Shown one piece after another: positions 39,851 to 61,700 of a DNA stretch of 64,000 nt. The notes below the pieces were generated by a model. The model had not been told where the DNA came from and searched no databases. It saw only the letters and a program-made list of their open reading frames with translations. The position numbers and the translations under genes were made by a program. The stretch covers positions 4,712,001 to 4,776,000 of the forward strand of contig NC_084763.1 in assembly GCF_028858725.1 (NCBI RefSeq), written 5' to 3'. The stretch comes from Colius striatus. Taxonomy: Eukaryota > Chordata > Aves > Coliiformes > Coliidae. Positions within the stretch are counted from its first letter, which is position 1; each line of letters opens with the position of its first letter.

Positions 39851-39979
39851 CATGCAATTAGAGCTTTGGCTTTGAAAGTCCTAAGAGAAATTCTAAGAAA
39901 CCAGCCATCAAGGTTTAAGAACTACGCAGAGCTCACAATCATGAAGACGTTAGAAGCGCATAAGGATCCTCATAAGGAG
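39851..39979 (+). CDS. CLASP2: CLASP2 exon: IRALALKVLREILRNQPSRF
   Basis: A 129-nt exon, phase 0 in and out, acceptor tgttaaatctttag and an unusual donor, gttggt. It encodes HAIRALALKVLREILRNQPS, RFKNYAELTIMKTLEAHKDP and HKE, HEAT-like helices of the C-terminal domain. Confidence 0.97.
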
Positions 39980-41188
39980 GTTGGTAATCAGTTATCCTGT
40001 TCCTTTCAAGTTACGACAAACTATTACATAATGAAACAGCTGTCCAAACAAATACTGTCTGAGAAATTCATCAGATCTTACTGAGGAAGTGACTTGTTTA
40101 ATAAAGGAGCATTCAGCTGTTACTAGTTAACATGGACGTGCAAGAAAAAATGAGCTGCAGTTTTACAAGCTCTCAAATGCTTGATACCAGCCCCAACAAC
40201 AGTTGCTCTGGGTACTGTCCAAGAGGACGTGGTAACCAGTGATGTGTCAGAGCTCAAGGAGTAACTGAAGGGAGGGTTTTTATTCCTTATGTGGCATCTT
40301 CAGCCAGATACACGTCCTGGAGCTCTGCAACAAGCTTTTGCATTTCATTAAGGTTCATGAATGAGAACCGAGGCTGAAGGACAGGGAATTGTCAGCCCTT
40401 CCCATCTTTAGCCATTTCTGTACCATTCAGGGGCATGGCTTTGAACGTTGTTAGGGGAGAACACACAGGCACAGATCAGAGGGAAGAGTTGCTTATGACC
40501 CTGAAGAGTGAGGGGCTTCAGAAGTAGAAGGGTAACTGTCATCTTGCTCAGAGGTAGCTGCGATGCACACAGACACAGTGAAGGGATAACGCACGTAAAT
40601 ACAAGAAACACAAATGCAGTAAGCACCCCAGTATGAAACAGTTCACATCAGTGTCACTGATGCTACAGGAGGAATCCAAGTTTGTTGTTATTAAATGAGT
40701 ACATCTTCTCCCAGCCTGCCCCATGCAAGAGCACATAATCTATATGGAACTTACTGTGGAGCTGTGGGTTTTGAAGTTACACTGCAGTTCCTCCCATACT
40801 GATCACTTCTGTCTCTCATCTGACACTTGTTTCTCTTTTCCTGCACCCTTTTGTTTCATACACTGTATTTATTACAGCATCTTGTTCCTATCTCTCCTCC
40901 TCCATTACTGTGCTTTATCTCTCTGTTAGTTTTGTGTATATGAGAGAGAGAGAGAAAAGGAGACAAGGGTGGAGAGAAGCCGTTAGAGAGGTTTTTGTAC
41001 ATCATTATACATCACTGATGGACAACTGATGGGATCTTGTAAACAGATTTACAGACAGCTCTTCATTCCAATACCTCTGCAATATTATAGAGCTCTCAGT
41101 AGGAAATGGTTATGCTCAAGGCCATTGCTGCTGGGTAGAAGTCTCTTATAAACCATTTTTCCATGACTTTCACTTATTCTTTCACTAG
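39980..41188 (+). other. CLASP2: CLASP2 intron
   Basis: 1.2-kb intron with a short (GA) run near 40939-40955. I see nothing else in it. Confidence 0.83.
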
Positions 41189-41395
41189 GTGGTGAGATCT
41201 GCTGAAGAAGCTGCTTCCATGCTGGCTACTTCCATTAGCCCAGATCAGTGCATCAAAGTTCTTTGTCCAATTATCCAAACTGCAGATTACCCCATTAATC
41301 TGGCTGCAATCAAAATGCAGACTAAAGTCATAGAAAGAGTATCTAAAGAAACCCTTACTCAGCTCTTACCAGAGATTGTGCCGGGTCTAATACAG
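41189..41395 (+). CDS. CLASP2: CLASP2 exon: VVRSAEEAASMLATSISPDQC
   Basis: A 207-nt exon, phase 0 in and out, donor gtaagg. It encodes VVRSAEEAASMLATSISPDQ, CIKVLCPIIQTADYPINLAA, IKMQTKVIERVSKETLTQLL and PEIVPGLIQ, the middle of the C-terminal partner-binding domain. Confidence 0.98.
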
Positions 41396-42304: not shown

Positions 42305-42421
42305 GGTTATGATAATTCAGAGAGCAGTGTTCGGAAGGCGTGCGTTTTCTGCCTGGTAGCCATTCATGCAGTAATTGGTGATGAACTGAACCCCCATCTC
42401 AGTCAACTCACTGGCAGTAAA
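42305..42421 (+). CDS. CLASP2: CLASP2 exon: GYDNSESSVRKACVFCLVAIH
   Basis: A 117-nt exon, phase 0 in and out, between tattgctttctag and gtaagt. It encodes GYDNSESSVRKACVFCLVAI, then HAVIGDELNPHLSQLTGSK, helices close to the C-terminus. Confidence 0.98.
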
Positions 42422-43488
42422 GTAAGTAAAAGATACCATTTTAAGAAACCTTGGTTCATAATTGTATGTATGCCTTTGCTTTCTGGTTGACATTGCTGGA
42501 CAGTTTCATAACATTATATGCTTGAACGAGGGTATCTCGGCTACTGAAACCCTCTGAGGATTAATGTAGTTTGGTCATCAAACATTCAAAGCTGGAAATC
42601 CATACATCTTCATTTGTGCAAGTGTATGAACTGTAGCATTAAGATAAATACTGAATTATATTTCAGAACTGTAGCATTAAGTACTAAATTATGTTTCAGA
42701 CAGCTCTTGAATGGGTTTAGTTACGGGTTGTGTCTCCAGCAGGAGTGATAATGGCTGTAACTCAGCTTGGCTTTTCCCATCAGGTTTTCTTGACTTTTTC
42801 TTCATGCAAGTTCTGATCAGAAAGCAATAAGTGTAATATGTGGATGTTACCTACAGCAGTTTTAATTATTCTCCCTCTTTGTTATTTTGAATTCATGAAT
42901 CCTTACAGTAACTCCAATTTGTAACAGTAGTAGTAGCCAGCCTGTGATCCAGCACGTTTATTTACTGACATCTCCTACATGAAGCTTTTTGCATGCAAGC
43001 AGGTGCATGTTAATTGTGTATCTCTGTTCTTGTGAATCAAACAGGACAATTAGTTTTGTGTATCTTCAAGCAGTTAAATATTCTCTGGCAGTGATAGTGT
43101 TGAAAGTGATTCTGGATGCTATTGGAAGCTTCACTAAACATCAGCAACTCTTAACTAGAGGTTTAAAGCCTCAACATTAACTGAAAAGGAAGAAAACTCC
43201 AACCTGCTTAATTTAGCACATTGTAATTTGAGGAAAACATTTAATCTGTGTTAATCTAACTACCTTAGATCATTCTTTACATCCTTAAAGAACTTTGAGC
43301 AGTGTCTTTGTGACAAATGTTGCTGTGTTTGATGTTTTCATTGGAAAGTATATTACTGTGTAAGCATGGTTTTGCTTTGGGGGGGGGGAGGAAAGAAAAT
43401 GATTTTGTGTCTTGTTAGTTGTACCATTCCTGTAGTCTCTACAGTTTGCAAACACTAAACAATGTGACTTTCTGACTTCAATTTGCAG
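42422..43488 (+). other. CLASP2: CLASP2 intron
   Basis: 1.07-kb last intron with a G10 run at about 43380. I see nothing else in it. Confidence 0.84.
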
Positions 43489-43575
43489 ATGAAATTATTG
43501 AACCTTTACATCAAACGTGCACAAACAGGCTCTGGACCAGGGGATACCACAGCAGATATGTCTGGACAAAGCTAA
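43489..43575 (+). CDS. CLASP2: CLASP2 last coding exon and stop
   Basis: Acceptor ttcaatttgcag, then MKLLNLYIKRAQTGSGPGDT, TADMSGQS and TAA (43573-43575). This C-terminus matches the CLASP2 tail (Gly-rich, ending in SGQS) and not CLASP1, which ends in a Ser-rich tail, as I recall. Confidence 0.98.
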   Translation: MKLLNLYIKRAQTGSGPGDTTADMSGQS

Positions 43576-51800: not shown

Positions 51801-53319
51801 TGAAAAATACCCAAATTAATTCTAGAAGGGCTATAACCAAGCCTGCTGTGGAAAGGTGACAAACAGGGGTGCAGTTTTAGTCTGTGTCCAGAGATGTTCG
51901 TGTATGTACATGTATTAACAGAAACCAGGCTACTGAGTAGTCTGGGAATCTCAGTTCCTTTTCCTCACTGAGTTTTCTTCCTGGACATCACAAAAAAGGA
52001 GGATCTTGTGCTTTTTCCATTTAATAAACAAGTCACAGAGCAAAACAGAGGCCTGTCGTCTCTGAGGGAAGCTCACGGGAGCCCCGAAGGAGGGTTGTGG
52101 GAGTGGTTTGTGGGATGTGTAGGTCCTTTTCTGAGGGAATAATCTATGTAATGGGAAATGGGGCTTCCACATACAATGCACTGTATGAGTTAACACCTTT
52201 GCCTAAATCTAGAGCTGACTGTGGTTTTATTTTACAGCTTGCCAGTAGATGGAGCAAGCTGGATAGCAGGACACATACTCTTATTTCTACCATCACTGAC
52301 ATCAAATTGGTTATTAAAGTAATGCAGCAGGGATCACTGGGACTCATCCAGCCTTTACATCTCGTAGGAGGGTGCTTAGTAAGAGCAGGCCAACCTCGGA
52401 AGGATTCCTCCAGCTCTCAGTGCTGGAGCAATGATCAAATTGTGTACACAAGCAGGTCTGTGTTAAGACAGCCCTTCTTGAGGTACATGGGTGCCTCTTA
52501 GAAGGGAATGATCTCTTAGAAGCACCAAGCCAGCAGTTCCAATTCTTGTCTGCTTTTCTGGTCATAGTGGCTTGTGGGTGCTTCTTTCTCTTTCCCATAT
52601 TTACAGTTCCTCTGCTACTACTACTCTGGCCTTTGATTTTTGTTTGTGGTGTTTGATGCTGAATAAGCATGGTAAGTTAAGGAGGACTGCCTCATGCTAT
52701 GAAAGACCCAACCATGCTGTTTGTTTGAAGGTTTTTTCACTGATGCATATTGCTCTCACTGGAATATGAAAGAATTCCTTTTGGTTTCGCAGAACCTCGC
52801 TCTTTGATGTTCCGATTTTCTTGGCTGAGTGTTGTGACAACATTGCAAAGCCTTTTAAAAGTACCTTTTCATAGAATGAGCTGCTGGGAACAAGCAATGT
52901 GTGCTTGTGTGGGGGTGGCATTTAAAAAACAACCCAACAAACTACTACTGTTAAGTCAGTAGTCCTCCCTGTTTCGAGCAGAATGGGTGCCCTCTGCAGG
53001 TGACTTCTTACAGACGAGGTGACTTCTTGAGTGAGAACTCCCTTTTATTTCCCAGTATCAAGCTCTTAGCAGGCTTGGCCAGTACTATTTTGTGTAGTTT
53101 AGGCATTACAATCCTGGCTGCAAACCCTGGCAAGCAAATGCCGCTGGGGACTGGGAGAGTAGGTGGGCCCAGCCAAAGCTTCACCTACCTGCCTCGGTTG
53201 GAGAGGCTGCCACTGGCCAGTGTGCTGGCAGCAGCTGTCAAGGTGTGAGGGCAACTCAACTGCAACTTTAATCTGAACCTGTGTGTTTGTTTTCTCTGTC
53301 CTGTCTCCCGTTGCTGCAG
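45851..53319. other. intergenic region between CLASP2 and the first UBP1 exon
   Basis: 7.5 kb of AT-rich single-copy sequence with one CR1 (51250-51558) and scattered AATAAA words (for example 47690, 50838). ORFs of up to about 120 codons (such as 49439-49804) have no recognisable family. A non-coding first exon or promoter serving the exon at 53320 would have to lie here, but I cannot point to one. Confidence 0.7.
51250..51558 (+). repeat. CR1 LINE 3' fragment
   Basis: The sequence aggggtgggtgtgaggagga, tgataggacaaggggcaacg, gaggttccaaagaaacacaa and tcctactctaggtggctctg ends in ttgagattctgtgatt. It belongs to the same subtype as the copies at 54792 and 55774. Confidence 0.94.
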
Positions 53320-53436
53320 TGACCATCTCTTAGCCGAGAACAACGCTTCATCTCATCCCAAAATGCTTTTCTGGCACAGCCAGCCTGAACATTATTACCA
53401 CCACCAGTATCCCACCAGTAACAGCAGCTACCTGCG
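53320..53436 (+). CDS. UBP1: alternative first coding exon of UBP1 (TFCP2L1-like N-terminus)
   Basis: A 117-nt exon-like block between tgtctcccgttgctgcag and the strong donor gtaaga. An ATG at 53363-53365 (A at -3) opens MLFWHSQPEHYYHH and, later, SNSSYL plus CG of a split codon. From memory the paralogue TFCP2L1 begins MLFWHTQPEHYNQ and passes through SYLR into DVLALPIFK. Canonical UBP1 exon 1 also ends in phase 2 (ATG AG), before the same DVLALPIFK exon, so CG+N would give Arg as in TFCP2L1 and AG+T gives Ser as in UBP1. The frame stays open upstream to the acceptor, so the block may be an internal exon behind a non-coding one or the end of a first exon. No other gene is expected in this interval. 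Confidence 0.82.
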
Positions 53437-54791
53437 GTAAGAAAACAACGGGGGGGGGGGTTAATAATGGTGATAATTGTGATGCTGTAACAAGAATGCA
53501 GACAGGCACAGCCTTTGCTTATTCACAAGTTCAAGCCTTCAAATAGGGCTGGTGTTTGTAGACCCTGTGAGAACAGTTGGAACAGCACAGTCAGATGCAG
53601 AGGAGATTTCCTTTCCTGTAGCTCCGTGGTCTTCACACACCAGGCCACTTGGATTATCTGCCCAAGCCCAGCTGATCTGCAGGGTCCAGGACTGCAGGCT
53701 GCGTGTCCTATCAGTCCAGGCACACAGGTTAAATGCTTTGCCTTGACATTCTGATGCAAGATACAGCTTGTTGCATCAGCATATCCCTGTCAGCTATGAA
53801 CCTCCTTTACCTCTTTGTGACCAAAACATTATTTGTGTACAGTATTTAAATTCTTCTTACACTTTAAACTGATGATGCTTTGACCAGAGCTCGGCTCATA
53901 GATCCCAGATAATGGTGCTGTTAATCGAGTTCCCATTTATAATGCAGTTCACTCCCTGAATTCAACTGCAGCTTATTACTTTTTTGGCTAAATACAATGT
54001 GTGTAAACATGCTAGTGTTTAATCATCACCTCGACGTGGCTTTCTGTGGGCTGGTCGTCTCACAGCTGCAACACAAGGTTAGTTCTGCTCTTACAGAAGT
54101 GCTGGGTAGCATGTTTTTATTAGAAGTGTGTGAAGGTTTAGGTTTAAAGAGCCAAGGAATTGAGGCTGTATTTGGGTTCCAAGGTGTGAAATGAATAAAA
54201 GTGCAGTGGAGTCTTATAAAGTCAGTCTATTTCAATACAAAGGTCAGGGTGATTGGATATTTAGATTGGCTGACACAAGTATGCAGCAAACACAGCTCTG
54301 CTCTATTGCCTCGAGTAGTACACCAGAAGTGAAGAAAGGGGTGCTGGAGTTCGCTGATGCCATGCAAAAGGAGCCAGGCAGCAAGGGAAAGTGAGGATGC
54401 CCACTCCCACCTCCAGTCCCCACTTCCTCAGCCTCTGTTCAGCTTGAATGAGGCACATCCTCTCCAGGCTCACCAGGTCCTCTTCATTGCTCCTCTGTTG
54501 CCTCCCCCTCAGCTAAGAGCCCCTCTGCAGTTACTTTTCCCCCCCAGTTTCCAGCACCTGCCTTTAGATTTGGATGACAGTACCCATCTTGGTGTTGGAA
54601 TACAATGCAGGGGAGGCACTTCCATAAATTAAAGGTGATGTACAAGAGCCAACAAGATTGGCTCTTGAGGGAGATGACCATAGGCAGAAAGAATACAAAC
54701 CAGTTCAGGCACTAGGCTGCAGTCTGCTCGTAAATATATAGAGTTGCTTGGCTCTGTCCTCAGTGCTTTTCCCTTAGTGAAGTACCACATG

Positions 54792-55176
54792 CTGAGGGAG
54801 CTGGGGCTCTTTGGCTTGGAGGAGGCTGAGAGGTGACCTCATTAATGGTTACAAACACATCAAGGGTGGGTGTCAGGAGGATGGAGCCAGGCTGTTCTCA
54901 GTGATAGCCAATGACAGGACAAGGGGCAATGGGGACAAGCTGGAACAGAAGAGGTTCTAAAGAGACACAAGGGAAAACTTCTTCAGTGTGAGGTTGAGGG
55001 AGCACTGGAAGGGGCTGCCCAGATGGGCTGTGGAGTCTCCTTCTCTGGAGACATTCCAACCCACCTGGATGAGTTCCTGTGTGACCTACTCTAGGTGGTG
55101 CTGCTCTGGCAGGGGAGGTTGGGCTGGATGAGCTTTCGAAGTCCCTTCCAGCCCTTCAGACTCTGTGATTCTGTGA
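54792..55176 (+). repeat. CR1 LINE 3' fragment
   Basis: The sequence gctgagggagctggggctct, cctcattaatggttacaaac, gatggagccaggctgttctc and tgtgacctactctaggtggt ends in agactctgtgattctgtgaa. It is a relatively young-looking copy. Confidence 0.95.
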
Positions 55177-55773
55177 AGGTTTTGATACAATCAGCAGTTG
55201 GATTCAGGGGAGGACACCAGACAGCGTTAGCGAAGAGCAAGTGAGAAAAAAGTGTCCCAGAGTCCATTCTTCCATCTGTGCAGATGTATCTGCAAAATAA
55301 GGCTCCCACTGCATGCACTTGCTCAGTTTTGCAGTCTTGTCCTCAAAACAGGCTCATATGCCAAACTTGTTGGGATGCTGCATGGGGCTCCTACTGTCTG
55401 TGTTGCAGAACAGCAGTTCCATTAGAAAAAGGTACCATATAGGCACAGTATGTGGGTTTTCAGTGGTTCCTGTTTGGTTAACCCAGCCCAGTCTCCTGTG
55501 GAATACAGATGGCACCAAAAGCATGACAGTTCTTTCCAGTTAATTCTGTCGCTTATAAAGAATAAGTGCAGCTTGACTTTTGCAATAGAAATCTCTGTGC
55601 TTTATTTGCTTTGTCTTTAAAACAGAGCTTTACTGTCCCTGAGTGAGGCCAATACCTAAATTTAGCCACAAACTAAACAGTTAAATTAGTGTAATGATGA
55701 AAAGAGATTGGAGTACTTGGAGCTGAATTGCACTGAAAATACAACTCCTTGCACTTCAAGCTGGCTATAGAGA

Positions 55774-56195
55774 GAATCACAGAATCTCAAGGGCTGGAAG
55801 GGACCTCAAAAGCTCATCCAGTGCAACTCCCCTGCCAGAGCAGGACCACCTAGAGTAGGGGACACAGGAACTCATCCAGCTGGGTTTGGAATGTCTCCAG
55901 AGAAGGAGCCTCCACAGCCCACCTGGGCAGCCCCTGCCAGTGCTCCCTCACCTCAACAGGGAAGAAATTCTTCCTTGTGTTTCTTTGGAACCTCTTGTGT
56001 TCCAGCTTGTCCCCATTGCCCCTTGTCCTGTCACTGGCCATCACTGAGCACAGCCTGGCTCCATCCTGCTGACACCCACCCTTTGTGTATTTGTAACCAT
56101 TAACCCCTCAGTCTCCTCTCCTCCAAGCTGAAGAGTCCCAGCTCCCTCAGCCTTTCCTAAGAAGGGAGATGCTCCACTCCCTTCATCATCTTTTC
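55774..56195 (-). repeat. CR1 LINE 3' fragment, reverse
   Basis: It begins gaatcacagaatctcaaggg and runs through ctggaagggacctcaaaagc, aactcccctgccagagcagg, ctccacagcccacctgggca and tctcctctcctccaagctga. It is the reverse-oriented copy of the subtype at 54792-55176, and the two can pair as an inverted repeat. Confidence 0.95.
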
Positions 56196-57197: not shown

Positions 57198-57680
57198 TCT
57201 GCCCTGGTGAGGCCTCATCTGGAGTCCTGTGTCCAGTTCTGGGCTCCTCAGCTCAAGAGGGACGGAGAAGTGCTGGAGAGAGGCCAGTGCAGGGCCACCA
57301 AGATGATCAGGGGACTGGAGCATCTTCCTTATGAGGAAAGGCTGTGGGAACTGGGGCTGTTTAGTCTGGAGGAGACTGAGGGGGGATCTCATTAATAGTT
57401 ACAAATAGCCAAAGGGTGGGTGTCAGGAGGCTGGGGCAGCACTTCATTCTGTTGTGTCCAGTGACGGGACGTGTGATGGGGTGAAGCTGGAACACAAAAA
57501 GTTGCGTTTGAAAGTAAGGAACAACTCTTTCACTGTGAGGTGAGGGAGCCCTGGCCCAGGCTGCCCCGGGAGCGTGTGGAGGCTCCTTCCTCGGAGCCGT
57601 TCAAGCCCCGCCTGGACACGCTCCTGTGTGAGCTGCTGTCGGTGACCCCGCTCCCCCCGCCGCTGTGTGTGATTAATGAG
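57198..57680 (+). repeat. CR1 LINE 3' fragment running into a CpG island
   Basis: The sequence gtgaggcctcatctggagtc, agggccaccaagatgatcag, gaggaaaggctgtgggaact and gggtgggtgtcaggaggctg leads to ggctgccccgggagcgtgtg. The last 120 bp are markedly GC- and CpG-enriched compared with other copies here, and the usual terminal ccttccaaccc tail is no longer recognisable. The element forms the upstream shore of the UBP1 CpG island. Confidence 0.9.
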
Positions 57681-57969
57681 TCACGAAGCGCCCTCAGCCG
57701 TGGCGCAGGCGCTGCCGCGCGCTCCCTGTGCCCGCCGCGCCCGCGCTTCCGGGCCGCGCCGCGCCTTCCGCCTCCGGGCCGCGCGCTCCCGGCATGCCGC
57801 GGGGCGGGCGGAAGCGCGCCGGCGCAGCGCGGCACGGGCCCGAGGGCGGGGCGCCGCGCCCGCGTCACCCGCTGACGTCGCCTGGCGTGACGGAGCGCTC
57901 GTTCATTGGCCGCGCTTCCCGCTCGCCCCTCCCTTCCCCTCCCTGATTGGGCGGCGGCGCAGAGGCCAG

Positions 57970-57974
57970 CCAAT
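57970..57974 (+). promoter_or_regulatory. UBP1: CCAAT box (with two inverted copies just upstream)
   Basis: CCAAT at 57970-57974 and ATTGG at 57905-57909 and 57946-57950 form a cluster within 70 bp, typical of NF-Y-bound CpG-island promoters. Confidence 0.65.
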
Positions 57975-58035
57975 GGGCGCGCCTCCCGGCGGCGGCCCCG
58001 CCCTGGCAGGCGCTCGGCCGGGGGGGACGGGAGTA

Positions 58036-58048
58036 GCCGCCATGTTGG
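58036..58048 (+). promoter_or_regulatory. UBP1: YY1-like element GCCGCCATGTTGG
   Basis: It differs from the YY1 downstream-promoter consensus GCCGCCATTTTG at one base. Such elements commonly sit just downstream of start sites. The ATG inside it starts a three-codon uORF. Confidence 0.6.
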
Positions 58049-58053
58049 CGTGA
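58042..58053 (+). other. minimal uORF (ATG TTG GCG TGA)
   Basis: Three codons and a stop in a near-perfect Kozak context (gccgccATG). It is relevant only if transcription starts upstream of 58042. Confidence 0.45.
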
Positions 58054-58207
58054 GCGGCGGCGCGGCGCGGGGGCACGGCGGAGGCGCGCGGGGGCAGCGG
58101 GGCGCCCCCCAGCGGCGGCCGGTACAGGCGGGCGGCGGCTCCCGGCGGGGCCCCGGCCCGCGCTGCTGCTGCCGCCGCCGCTGCCGCCGCGGCCTCGCCC
58201 CCTGCGA

Positions 58208-58375
58208 ATGATGCGGCGGGACGCGCCGCTGGGCTGCGTCGGAGCTCGGGCGGTGGCACAAGCGGCGGCGGCCCCGGGCGGCGACCGGCGGGAAGCGGCG
58301 GCGGGGAAGGAGGAGGAGGCGGCGGCCGCCCGGTCCCCAGCCCCCCGCGGCGGCCGGGCGAGCGCAGGATGCTGA
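58208..58375 (+). other. uORF of 55 codons in the UBP1 leader
   Basis: It starts at a doubled ATGATG (58208-58213) and stops at TGA 58373-58375, in a different reading frame from the main ORF. The peptide is Ala/Arg/Gly-rich with no recognisable domain. It overlaps the next uORF by 7 nt. Confidence 0.45.
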
Positions 58376-58410
58376 GAGCCGCCCCGCGCTCTGGTCCCTC
58401 CCGGGGCTGA
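58369..58410 (+). other. uORF of 13 codons in the UBP1 leader
   Basis: ATG at 58369, [13 protein letters not shown], stop at 58408-58410, about 208 nt before the main start codon. Confidence 0.45.
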
Positions 58411-58618
58411 ACGCCGACTCCTTTTTCCCCCTTCGCCCTCCGACGCGTTTCGCTCCCCCCGCCTCCCTCAGTTCCCTCCAGCCCTTCGGCGTGTCTCGGC
58501 GCCGCCCGCCGAGTCGCCGCCTCCCGGCAGAGCAGCGGCGGCGGCTCCGGGGCTCGGCGGCTCCTCCCCGTCCGGCTCCTCCCGCGGCCGCACACGGGAG
58601 CGCGGGGGGCGGTGGAAG

Positions 58619-58731
58619 ATGGCGTGGGTGCTGAAGATGGACGAAGTGATCGAGTCTGGGCTGGTGCACGACTTCGACGCCAGCCTCTCCGGCATCGGGC
58701 AGGAGCTGGGCGCCGGGGCCTACAGCATGAG
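58619..58731 (+). CDS. UBP1: UBP1 coding exon 1 (canonical N-terminus)
   Basis: ATG at 58619-58621 (A at -3, G at +4) opens [20 protein letters not shown], then [17 protein letters not shown], and splits Ser at AG before donor gtgggt. This is the LBP-1a/UBP1 N-terminus as I recall it, almost unchanged from human. TFCP2 starts with a related [18 protein letters not shown], so the missing LPLA and the CLASP2 neighbourhood both favour UBP1. The protein is a CP2-family DNA-binding factor with a CP2 domain, a SAM-like domain and a dimerisation domain; only the N-terminal 37 residues are in the window. Confidence 0.97.
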
Positions 58732-61700
58732 GTGGGTCCCTCACGGTGAGGGGATGTGTGTGTGCCCGGGGCAGCCCGGGAACGAGCTGGGGCTTACCCC
58801 CTCTTCTTCCCTCTGGTTTTGTTCCATCCCTCGGGCCTCCGGAGGCTCTTTCCCCGTATCTCGCGGCTTTTCCCCCGTACCATCGTGCTGTGCATGGCGT
58901 GAGGGGGCTGCCCCTCGCCCTGGCCAGCCCTCCCCGTTGCTGGCAGCCGTCCCGCTGATAGGGCGGGCTGCTCGGAGGCTTGGGCCCTCTCTGTGCCATC
59001 TCCGCTGTCAGAATGCCATCTCTCTGTTTCCTGGCGATGGAATCGGGGCACACATTCCAGAGGATCGTCATCTTTTACTCGGCGGGTGTAATTCCGTTTC
59101 GTTTAAAGCAATAGCTGTTTTCTCGAACGTTTACAAACGTGCCTTCTTGAGCAAGTAAGCGTCGTGGCAGTTAACAGGGCAACAGCATGACTCTGCCTTC
59201 ATCAGGACGTTCCTTCCCTTGTGTTTCTGCATATTCAGGGGCTTTAGCTACATATTTTCCTTGTCATGTTCTTCTGTGTTCCCGGGCAGCTTGTCAGTTT
59301 CATTACCTTTTAACTGTTTTCCAGTAAAAGTGTTTAAATAGGGTTTAGGTGTGCTTTGGAAAGATAAAACCATGCTCATCCCAAAGAAGTACAGGTTCTG
59401 GGTAGAACGTGGGGATTCCTGAGCTGCCATCAGAGGGAAACCACTGTGGAGATGCTGGGAGAGATTCAGTTGTAAGGTTTTCAACAAGATTAGTCGGTAC
59501 TTTTGAGAGTCTGGGGAAGTAAAACTGTGGTGTTTGATCGTTTTGATGGCCTATCCCCATGGAAGATATCATCTCATAGGGTTACCTGATGACTGGAGAT
59601 CACCACAAGTTTCAGTTTCTGCAAGTGCAGTGTCTTTGCTCAGTTATACGTAAGGCTTTTGGCTGGATAGAAAAGAGGACCATTTTTGGGATCGTGAGCT
59701 CAGCAGGTTTATGGCAAGTTGTGTATCTGATTTGGGGGGGGGGTGGTTGTTTGGTGTGGGCTTTGATTGTATTGTTATTTTAAGAACTAAAAAGCAATCT
59801 GAGAACTTGCCAGTTCAGAGAACAAGATGATTCACCACTCTTCCTCACACTGCTCCTGATTTTATATTCAGCACGTCTGGATTTTCTTCCTCTTCTGTCC
59901 TGTTTCTGTCGTCATGCAAACACTCAGCCCGTGGTGTGCAGCTTTTATTGGCAGCTGGATGTCAGTTGCTTAGCTGGCTTCTCAGCATTCATCTTCTGGT
60001 TATCTTTTCCTCGTGCAGACACCAGTGGATAACACGTGGCTTCCCGTTGAAGAGCTGATTTTCCCTCTCCATCATGAAGGCTGGCTAGGGTGACTATTTA
60101 AAGATCCCCCCTTTTTGTTTGGTAAACTTCATTTCTTCTCCCAGCAATGCACACTGCTGGAAACTTTAAGACTTCAAATCTTTGCTGCTGTTGTGTAGAT
60201 TCTGTGTTTTTGTAATGGACAGCAATCCTGAATGTGTTTTTAGTGATATTGGGATACTTTGAATTACTACACCAAGAGTTGTAGTAGTTAAAAACAACTC
60301 TTAAATGTATTGCACGAGCTAAGCTACACATGAGTCTTAAATCAGCAGGTATGTTAGTTATGTTATGTGTTCCCTAGATTTCTGCTTTAGGGAAATCATG
60401 GCCTGTTAAGTGGTGTGAGAGTGGCGAAGTGCCATAGCATGAGGAGTGAAGGTATTGCTCTGTCAGTGTTCTGTGTGCCAGCAAAAGCTAATTACTTGTA
60501 ACTTATGAAAAAAAAAGATGAGAGAAGAAGAAGAAATGTGTAGAGGAGAATGCTGGGAATGCTCCCCAAGCTACATGGTTCTGTGTCCTTTTACCTTTTT
60601 GGGTTGTGTATAATGCAGTTGATGCTTCCTGAAGTAGCTGATCCATGTAGAATATGTGGTATTACTCCTGTGTTTATTCTTACTAGGAAAACTGCTCGTG
60701 TCCACCAGAAACTGTGGTTTTCTTAGAAGGGAGCTAACAGGACAAAGCTTCTCTGCAGATTCATGTGGCTTTAAGTAGTTCTCAAAATTCCCTTAACATC
60801 TTGAAACCCAGTTTACCTGATTGCTGTTCTGATGTCTTGTCACGTGGCAAGAAACTGCCTGTAACCACATGTAATTCTAGTCAGATATGTCAAATAACCC
60901 CTTCAGAACCCTGTATAAGAAACCTGGTACCTTTAGTGGTGGTGGGTTTTAAGTATTGCTGTTGACTGCAAGACTCTCACAGTGGTAACATCTGTCATAA
61001 CCCAGCAAGAGTTGTATAATTTGGGGCATTGCTGTGGACTGTTAAATAACCAGAGGCTGCTTCCTGGAAAATACAAGTTGCAGGAGTTGCCTACCATTCT
61101 TCCAGGAGAATCCCACTTTTCATGTAATTAATTATTTGATTAACCAATTCCTTTCAATTAAGGTACATGAACGTTGAGGTAAGGACAAGTACCTTAGTGA
61201 CTGAGTTCTTATGCGTAATTTGGAAGCTTAGTGTGTGGCTCTGTTGAAACACTTGCAGTTCCAAGGGTATTTGTAGTGCTAGAGTTGAAGCCTGTCATTG
61301 GAGAACGTGCTGATTATTTCAGGAGTGGCTATTTTGGTGTATGTTTCTAGATGAAAGCCCGAAGTTTATGAAACTAAACTCCAATTTAGAAAGAGATGAC
61401 TTGGTTCTGAAAAGGAAAAGCCTGTAGAAAAGATTGTGTGGAAATACATCCAAACAATCCTCCATTTTTGGAGAATGAAGCCAGTTTGACTCTGCTGCAT
61501 CTCCCAGGCACTTGGAGGGAGCATCTTTGGAGAATGGAGCTGGCTGCTGCCTTGCTTGGAAAGACAAGAAACCAACTGCAGTCAGCCTTGTTTCTTTCCT
61601 GTGCTGTGGAGATGCTCGAGTGGCAAGGGAATTTGGTCTGTCAACTGCTGCAAAGTTTAGGCTAAAGCATCCGTGTGTTCCGTTAGGATTTAGGGGACCA

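Follow-up and report, generated by a model that had tools for sequence, protein, structure and literature searches.

The N-terminus of TFCP2L1 (CRTR-1/LBP-9) has been printed as MLFWHTQPEHYNQHNSGSYLR, and this 21-residue segment served as an antigen and was stated to be absent from the other CP2 members (PMC2908540). An earlier report placed a repression domain of the protein at residues 1-52, and deletions made in 2010 indicate residues 48-198 (PMC2908540); because the two assignments conflict, we claim no repressor role for a protein start of the MLFWH type. In the mouse, Tfcp2l1 is required for intercalated cells and has targets in common with Foxi1, at which both are found (PMC5484618). 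In frogs, where Ubp1 is used in beta-ionocytes, it acts as a repressor of ae1 and an inducer of pendrin and favours the beta cell type (review PMC6213935). The authors of a recent frog study, in which ubp1 and tfcp2l1 are separate genes, remarked that the part played by Ubp1 in frogs falls to Tfcp2l1 in the kidney of mammals, and they used mRNA of their ubp1 clone in ionocyte rescue and overexpression, beside a morpholino knock-down (PMC12768278). The open-licence PMC literature, searched by title and the start of the abstract, contained no report of an alternative-promoter UBP1 isoform of the kind proposed below, and the open-licence PMC literature had nothing on TFCP2L1 with an alternative first exon. 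The available part of a further paper (PMC2873413) had 0 occurrences of the term 'N-termin'.

The stretch of Colius striatus DNA analysed here (64,000 nucleotides, the window) contains an exon, termed exon A, that we judge from its sequence, with a probability of about 85%, to provide UBP1 with a genuine alternative first coding exon. The initial annotation had pointed to this exon, and its coordinates, frame, acceptor, donor, ATG at 53363 and phase 2 all held on re-reading the window (Table 1). The acceptor reads ...CTCCCGTTGCTGCAG/T and the donor CTGCG/GTAAGA, the slash marking the exon border. All GT and AG sites of the window were ranked with a simple weight matrix, and the splice sites of exon A score on par with most of the adjoining real sites. 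By the same matrix the donor of UBP1 exon 1 ranks 22, two CLASP2 donors rank 2 and 41, and three CLASP2 acceptors rank 55, 148 and 119. The CLASP2 match at 39866-39982 has no good splice site at its ends (the best acceptor there ranks 2409 and the best donor 270). Because exon A has an acceptor, a further 5' exon would lie upstream of it, if the acceptor is used. The CpG observed/expected ratio is 0.26 in the 500-base bin of exon A, and there is no CpG island there. A bacterial-type promoter scan of 53000-53400, a scan type unsuited to vertebrate DNA, gave none. A run of 11 G occupies 53451-53461, just past the donor.

Table 1. Features of the window that bear on the UBP1 first exons and the upstream gene.
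Feature	Position	Strand	Remarks
Exon A (candidate alternative UBP1 exon)	53320..53436	+	43-nt leader and 74-nt coding part
Exon A, coding part	53363..53436	+	MLFWHSQPEHYYHHQYPTSNSSYL + CG, phase 2; CG is completed to an R codon whichever base opens exon 2
Exon A acceptor, pyrimidine tract and CAG	53289..53319	+	rank 56 of 4662 AG sites
Exon A donor, GTAAGA	53437..53442	+	rank 45 of 4225 GT sites
Exon B (canonical UBP1 exon 1), coding part	58619..58731	+	37 residues (MAWVLKM...) + AG, phase 2
CpG island around exon B	57501..59000	+	CpG observed/expected 0.77-1.04, GC 0.71-0.81, three 500-base bins
CLASP2 coding stretch (matched part only)	39866..39982	+	
CLASP2 coding exon	41189..41395	+	
CLASP2 coding exon	42305..42421	+	
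CLASP2 last coding exon, ends MSGQS	43489..43572	+	downstream end of the neighbouring gene

Exon A had been said to end in phase 2 about 5 kb upstream of the canonical first exon (exon B), and indeed both exons end in phase 2 and the distance is 5.2 kb. The two starts have different compositions: that of exon A has 24-25 residues and is rich in aromatic residues and histidine (6 F/W/Y, 4 H, 1 D/E), and the 37 residues of exon B are acidic (6 D/E, 1 K/R). The CpG island around exon B is presumably the promoter of the canonical isoform. Antisense to exon B, a stop-to-stop open frame of 514 residues runs over 57530-59074 on the minus strand, as is expected in a GC-rich CpG island. Among the matches listed for UBP1 exons beyond exon 1, none in the window had an E value better than 0.36; exon 2 lies outside the window, and therefore the junction between exon A and exon 2 is not readable in it.

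The likeness of exon A to the TFCP2L1 start, which the annotation had also proposed, is beyond chance. A tblastn search of the window with the 21-residue TFCP2L1 N-terminus found exon A with an E value of 1.7e-7 and 35.4 bits, at 60% identity and with a gap of four residues. The second-best place in the window scored 18.5 bits, and the best score among 100 Markov-shuffled windows was 25.0 bits, so that exon A tops all 100 shuffles. The degenerate back-translated motif MLFWH.QPEHY had a single match in the window and none in the 100 shuffles. Exon A thus has the features of a TFCP2L1-type exon, that is, the MLFWH.QPEHY start, the SYLR end and phase 2. The peptide printed for mouse CRTR-1, together with the K30A primer (ALPIF-K30-QEEP; PMC2908540), fits a direct passage from SYLR to DVLALPIFK. 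Scans of viral and prokaryote contigs gave 0 matches, as expected. The PDB search with a TFCP2L1 fragment returned 4 matches, all of which begin at query residue 44 or later and leave the N-terminus uncovered.

The MLFWH start had been described as otherwise found in TFCP2L1, and in this exclusive form the claim did not stand. The forward primer for full-length cloning of Xenopus laevis ubp1 is printed as GGATCC ATG TTG TTT TGG CAC AGC CAA C and translates to MLFWHSQ, the same seven residues with which exon A starts (PMC12768278 Table 2). The comparison covers 22 bases of the gene start, known from the cloning primer alone, and the primer says nothing on the position of the exon in the frog genome. 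The table that contains it has slips, in that its heading reads 3'-5' and two primer pairs are printed identically. Other printed sequences of the frog gene are a ubp1 probe primer that reads FLKQED in one frame and a coding 3' end of the clone that reads FHCILR (PMC12768278). Our evidence for conservation consists of one window and the 22 frog bases. The KQED of the probe primer is as in UBP1. The target of the frog ubp1 morpholino matched the 45 bases before the ATG at 12 of 25 positions at best without gaps, fewer than the 16 of 25 found by chance elsewhere in the window, and so this comparison is uninformative. The main text of the frog paper has 0 occurrences of 'N-termin' and 'splice', and one unrelated occurrence each of 'isoform' and 'alternative', and it seems that the likeness between the Ubp1 and Tfcp2l1 starts is not discussed there. 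Taken together, the window and the frog gene contradict a general absence of the MLFWH start from CP2 members other than TFCP2L1. Judging by the window and the frog primer, the N-terminus that served as a TFCP2L1-specific antigen is not specific to that paralogue.

The frog sequence also bears on whether exon A is in use. Exon A could be a relic, inherited from a tetrapod ancestor and no longer transcribed in this species, and it has no adjoining CpG island, as such a relic might. We consider this unlikely. The reading frame is intact, as are the acceptor, the donor and the seven residues known from the frog, and 4 of the 22 compared bases differ between the frog primer and the window, all of them silently. 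Of the 247860 versions of these 22 bases with four changes, only 57 preserve the peptide (0.08% when transitions are favoured). Because the frog ubp1 clone starts with MLFWHSQ, an old exon maintained by selection is far likelier than a relic, and both first coding exons of UBP1 have probably been kept since the common ancestor of frogs and amniotes, as far as the sequences indicate.

The start codon itself needs a separate consideration. The frame of exon A is open across the acceptor, where DHLLAENNASSHPK precedes the Met, and the first in-frame stop is at 53246; therefore it is homology that places the start at 53363. In formal terms, a coding exon further 5' could be fused to exon A through the open frame of 53246-53362. 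With CLASP2 upstream on the same strand, exon A might then be internal and coding in a transcript that reads through from CLASP2 into UBP1, or translation might start further upstream. However, the same Met begins both the frog ubp1 clone and the CRTR-1 peptide as printed (PMC12768278; PMC2908540), and we regard either arrangement as very improbable.

We assign exon A to UBP1, as the annotation did, because it is preceded by CLASP2 on the same strand and followed by the canonical MAWVLKM exon, and because Clasp2, Ubp1 and Fbxl2 are named together in one mouse interval (PMC2715105). The locus could instead be the CLASP1-TFCP2L1 region, with exon A as the plain first exon of TFCP2L1, but the upstream gene is identical at 151 of 161 residues to PDB chains that bear the name CLIP-associating protein 2. 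The PDB search gave 5 matches; the two CLASP sequences in this set both have that name, and the set includes no CLASP1 chain of that part. The tails of the two proteins were also compared with the window. The CLASP1 tail was weaker than that of CLASP2 at 42305-42424 (77.5% vs 92.5%) and at 41189-41395 (113 vs 127 bits) and has a different C-terminus, although the two were about equal at 39866-39982 (79% vs 77%). Exon B agrees with the start of human UBP1, as used here, at 37 of 37 positions. Since the upstream gene is CLASP2, the locus is CLASP2-UBP1, and an error of locus is hardly conceivable; mammals have the same strand order of CLASP2 and UBP1. If the TFCP2L1 exon had recently been copied or converted into the UBP1 locus of this lineage, the resemblance of exon A to TFCP2L1 would be explained, but this is just as hard to credit, as the MLFWHSQ start is already present in frog ubp1 (PMC12768278) and S at residue 6 is common to exon A and the frog gene, against T in the printed CRTR-1 (PMC2908540).

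Reading exon A as an alternative first coding exon of UBP1, we suggest that exons A and B would be mutually exclusive. What the annotation had said of two first exons stands in the identity of the gene, the homology with TFCP2L1 and the shared phase, and falls in the restriction of this N-terminus to TFCP2L1. Exon B, with its CpG island, would serve a broadly expressed form. Exon A, in non-CpG DNA behind a 5' exon and promoter that are not seen, would be used in this species from a separate promoter of restricted activity and would be spliced in phase 2 to the shared exon 2. The product would exchange the 37-residue acidic start for a TFCP2L1-like start of 24-25 residues. Inverted interspersed repeats, which we take to be CR1-like, occur between the two exons at 54791-56151 and 57341-57653. 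Two arms among them, each of 221 bases and separated by 820 bases, have 90% complementarity and could form a hairpin in the exon A transcript.

The most economical mechanism would be an alternative promoter that provides UBP1 with the TFCP2L1-type start in ion-transporting cells, the tissue and the effect being our supposition. Exon A may mark an isoform of restricted expression, perhaps confined to epithelia of the ionocyte kind, and its form would act in ion-transporting epithelial cells of the Foxi1 type, where Ubp1 serves in frogs and Tfcp2l1 in the mouse kidney. We hold the chances of such an ionocyte-type job to be evenly balanced. The FOX-like word TGTTTAC was found 8 times in the window against 11.6 expected, which is no enrichment and gives no support for an ionocyte promoter. 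If the ionocyte-type job is true, the difference between frog Ubp1 and mouse kidney Tfcp2l1 would receive a simple answer, in that the proteins share their start.

More tentatively, the single ancestral vertebrate CP2/LSF gene might have had two promoters and two first coding exons, with the MAW exon retained in TFCP2, the MLFWH exon in TFCP2L1 and both in UBP1. The ion-transport job would then track the MLFWH exon, and hence fall to Ubp1 in frogs and to Tfcp2l1 in mammals. Such a partition of the ancestral exons among the paralogues is plausible, though we lean slightly against the scheme as a whole. If true, it would be a clean example of an ancestral set of alternative first exons shared out among paralogues.

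Exon A can thus be set beside three described starts. Like TFCP2L1, it has the MLFWH-QPEHY and SYLR ends and would stand directly before the (DVL)ALPIFK segment, but it is located in UBP1, is four residues longer and carries S at residue 6, where TFCP2L1 has T (compared with the sequence in PMC2908540). With X. laevis ubp1, the frog side being known from the primer alone, it shares the gene name and an identical MLFWHSQ (PMC12768278). The canonical first exon of UBP1 and TFCP2 (MAW...DEVIESGL) would likewise join the shared exon 2 in phase 2, whereas it is acidic, is associated with a CpG island and does not evidently resemble exon A in sequence.
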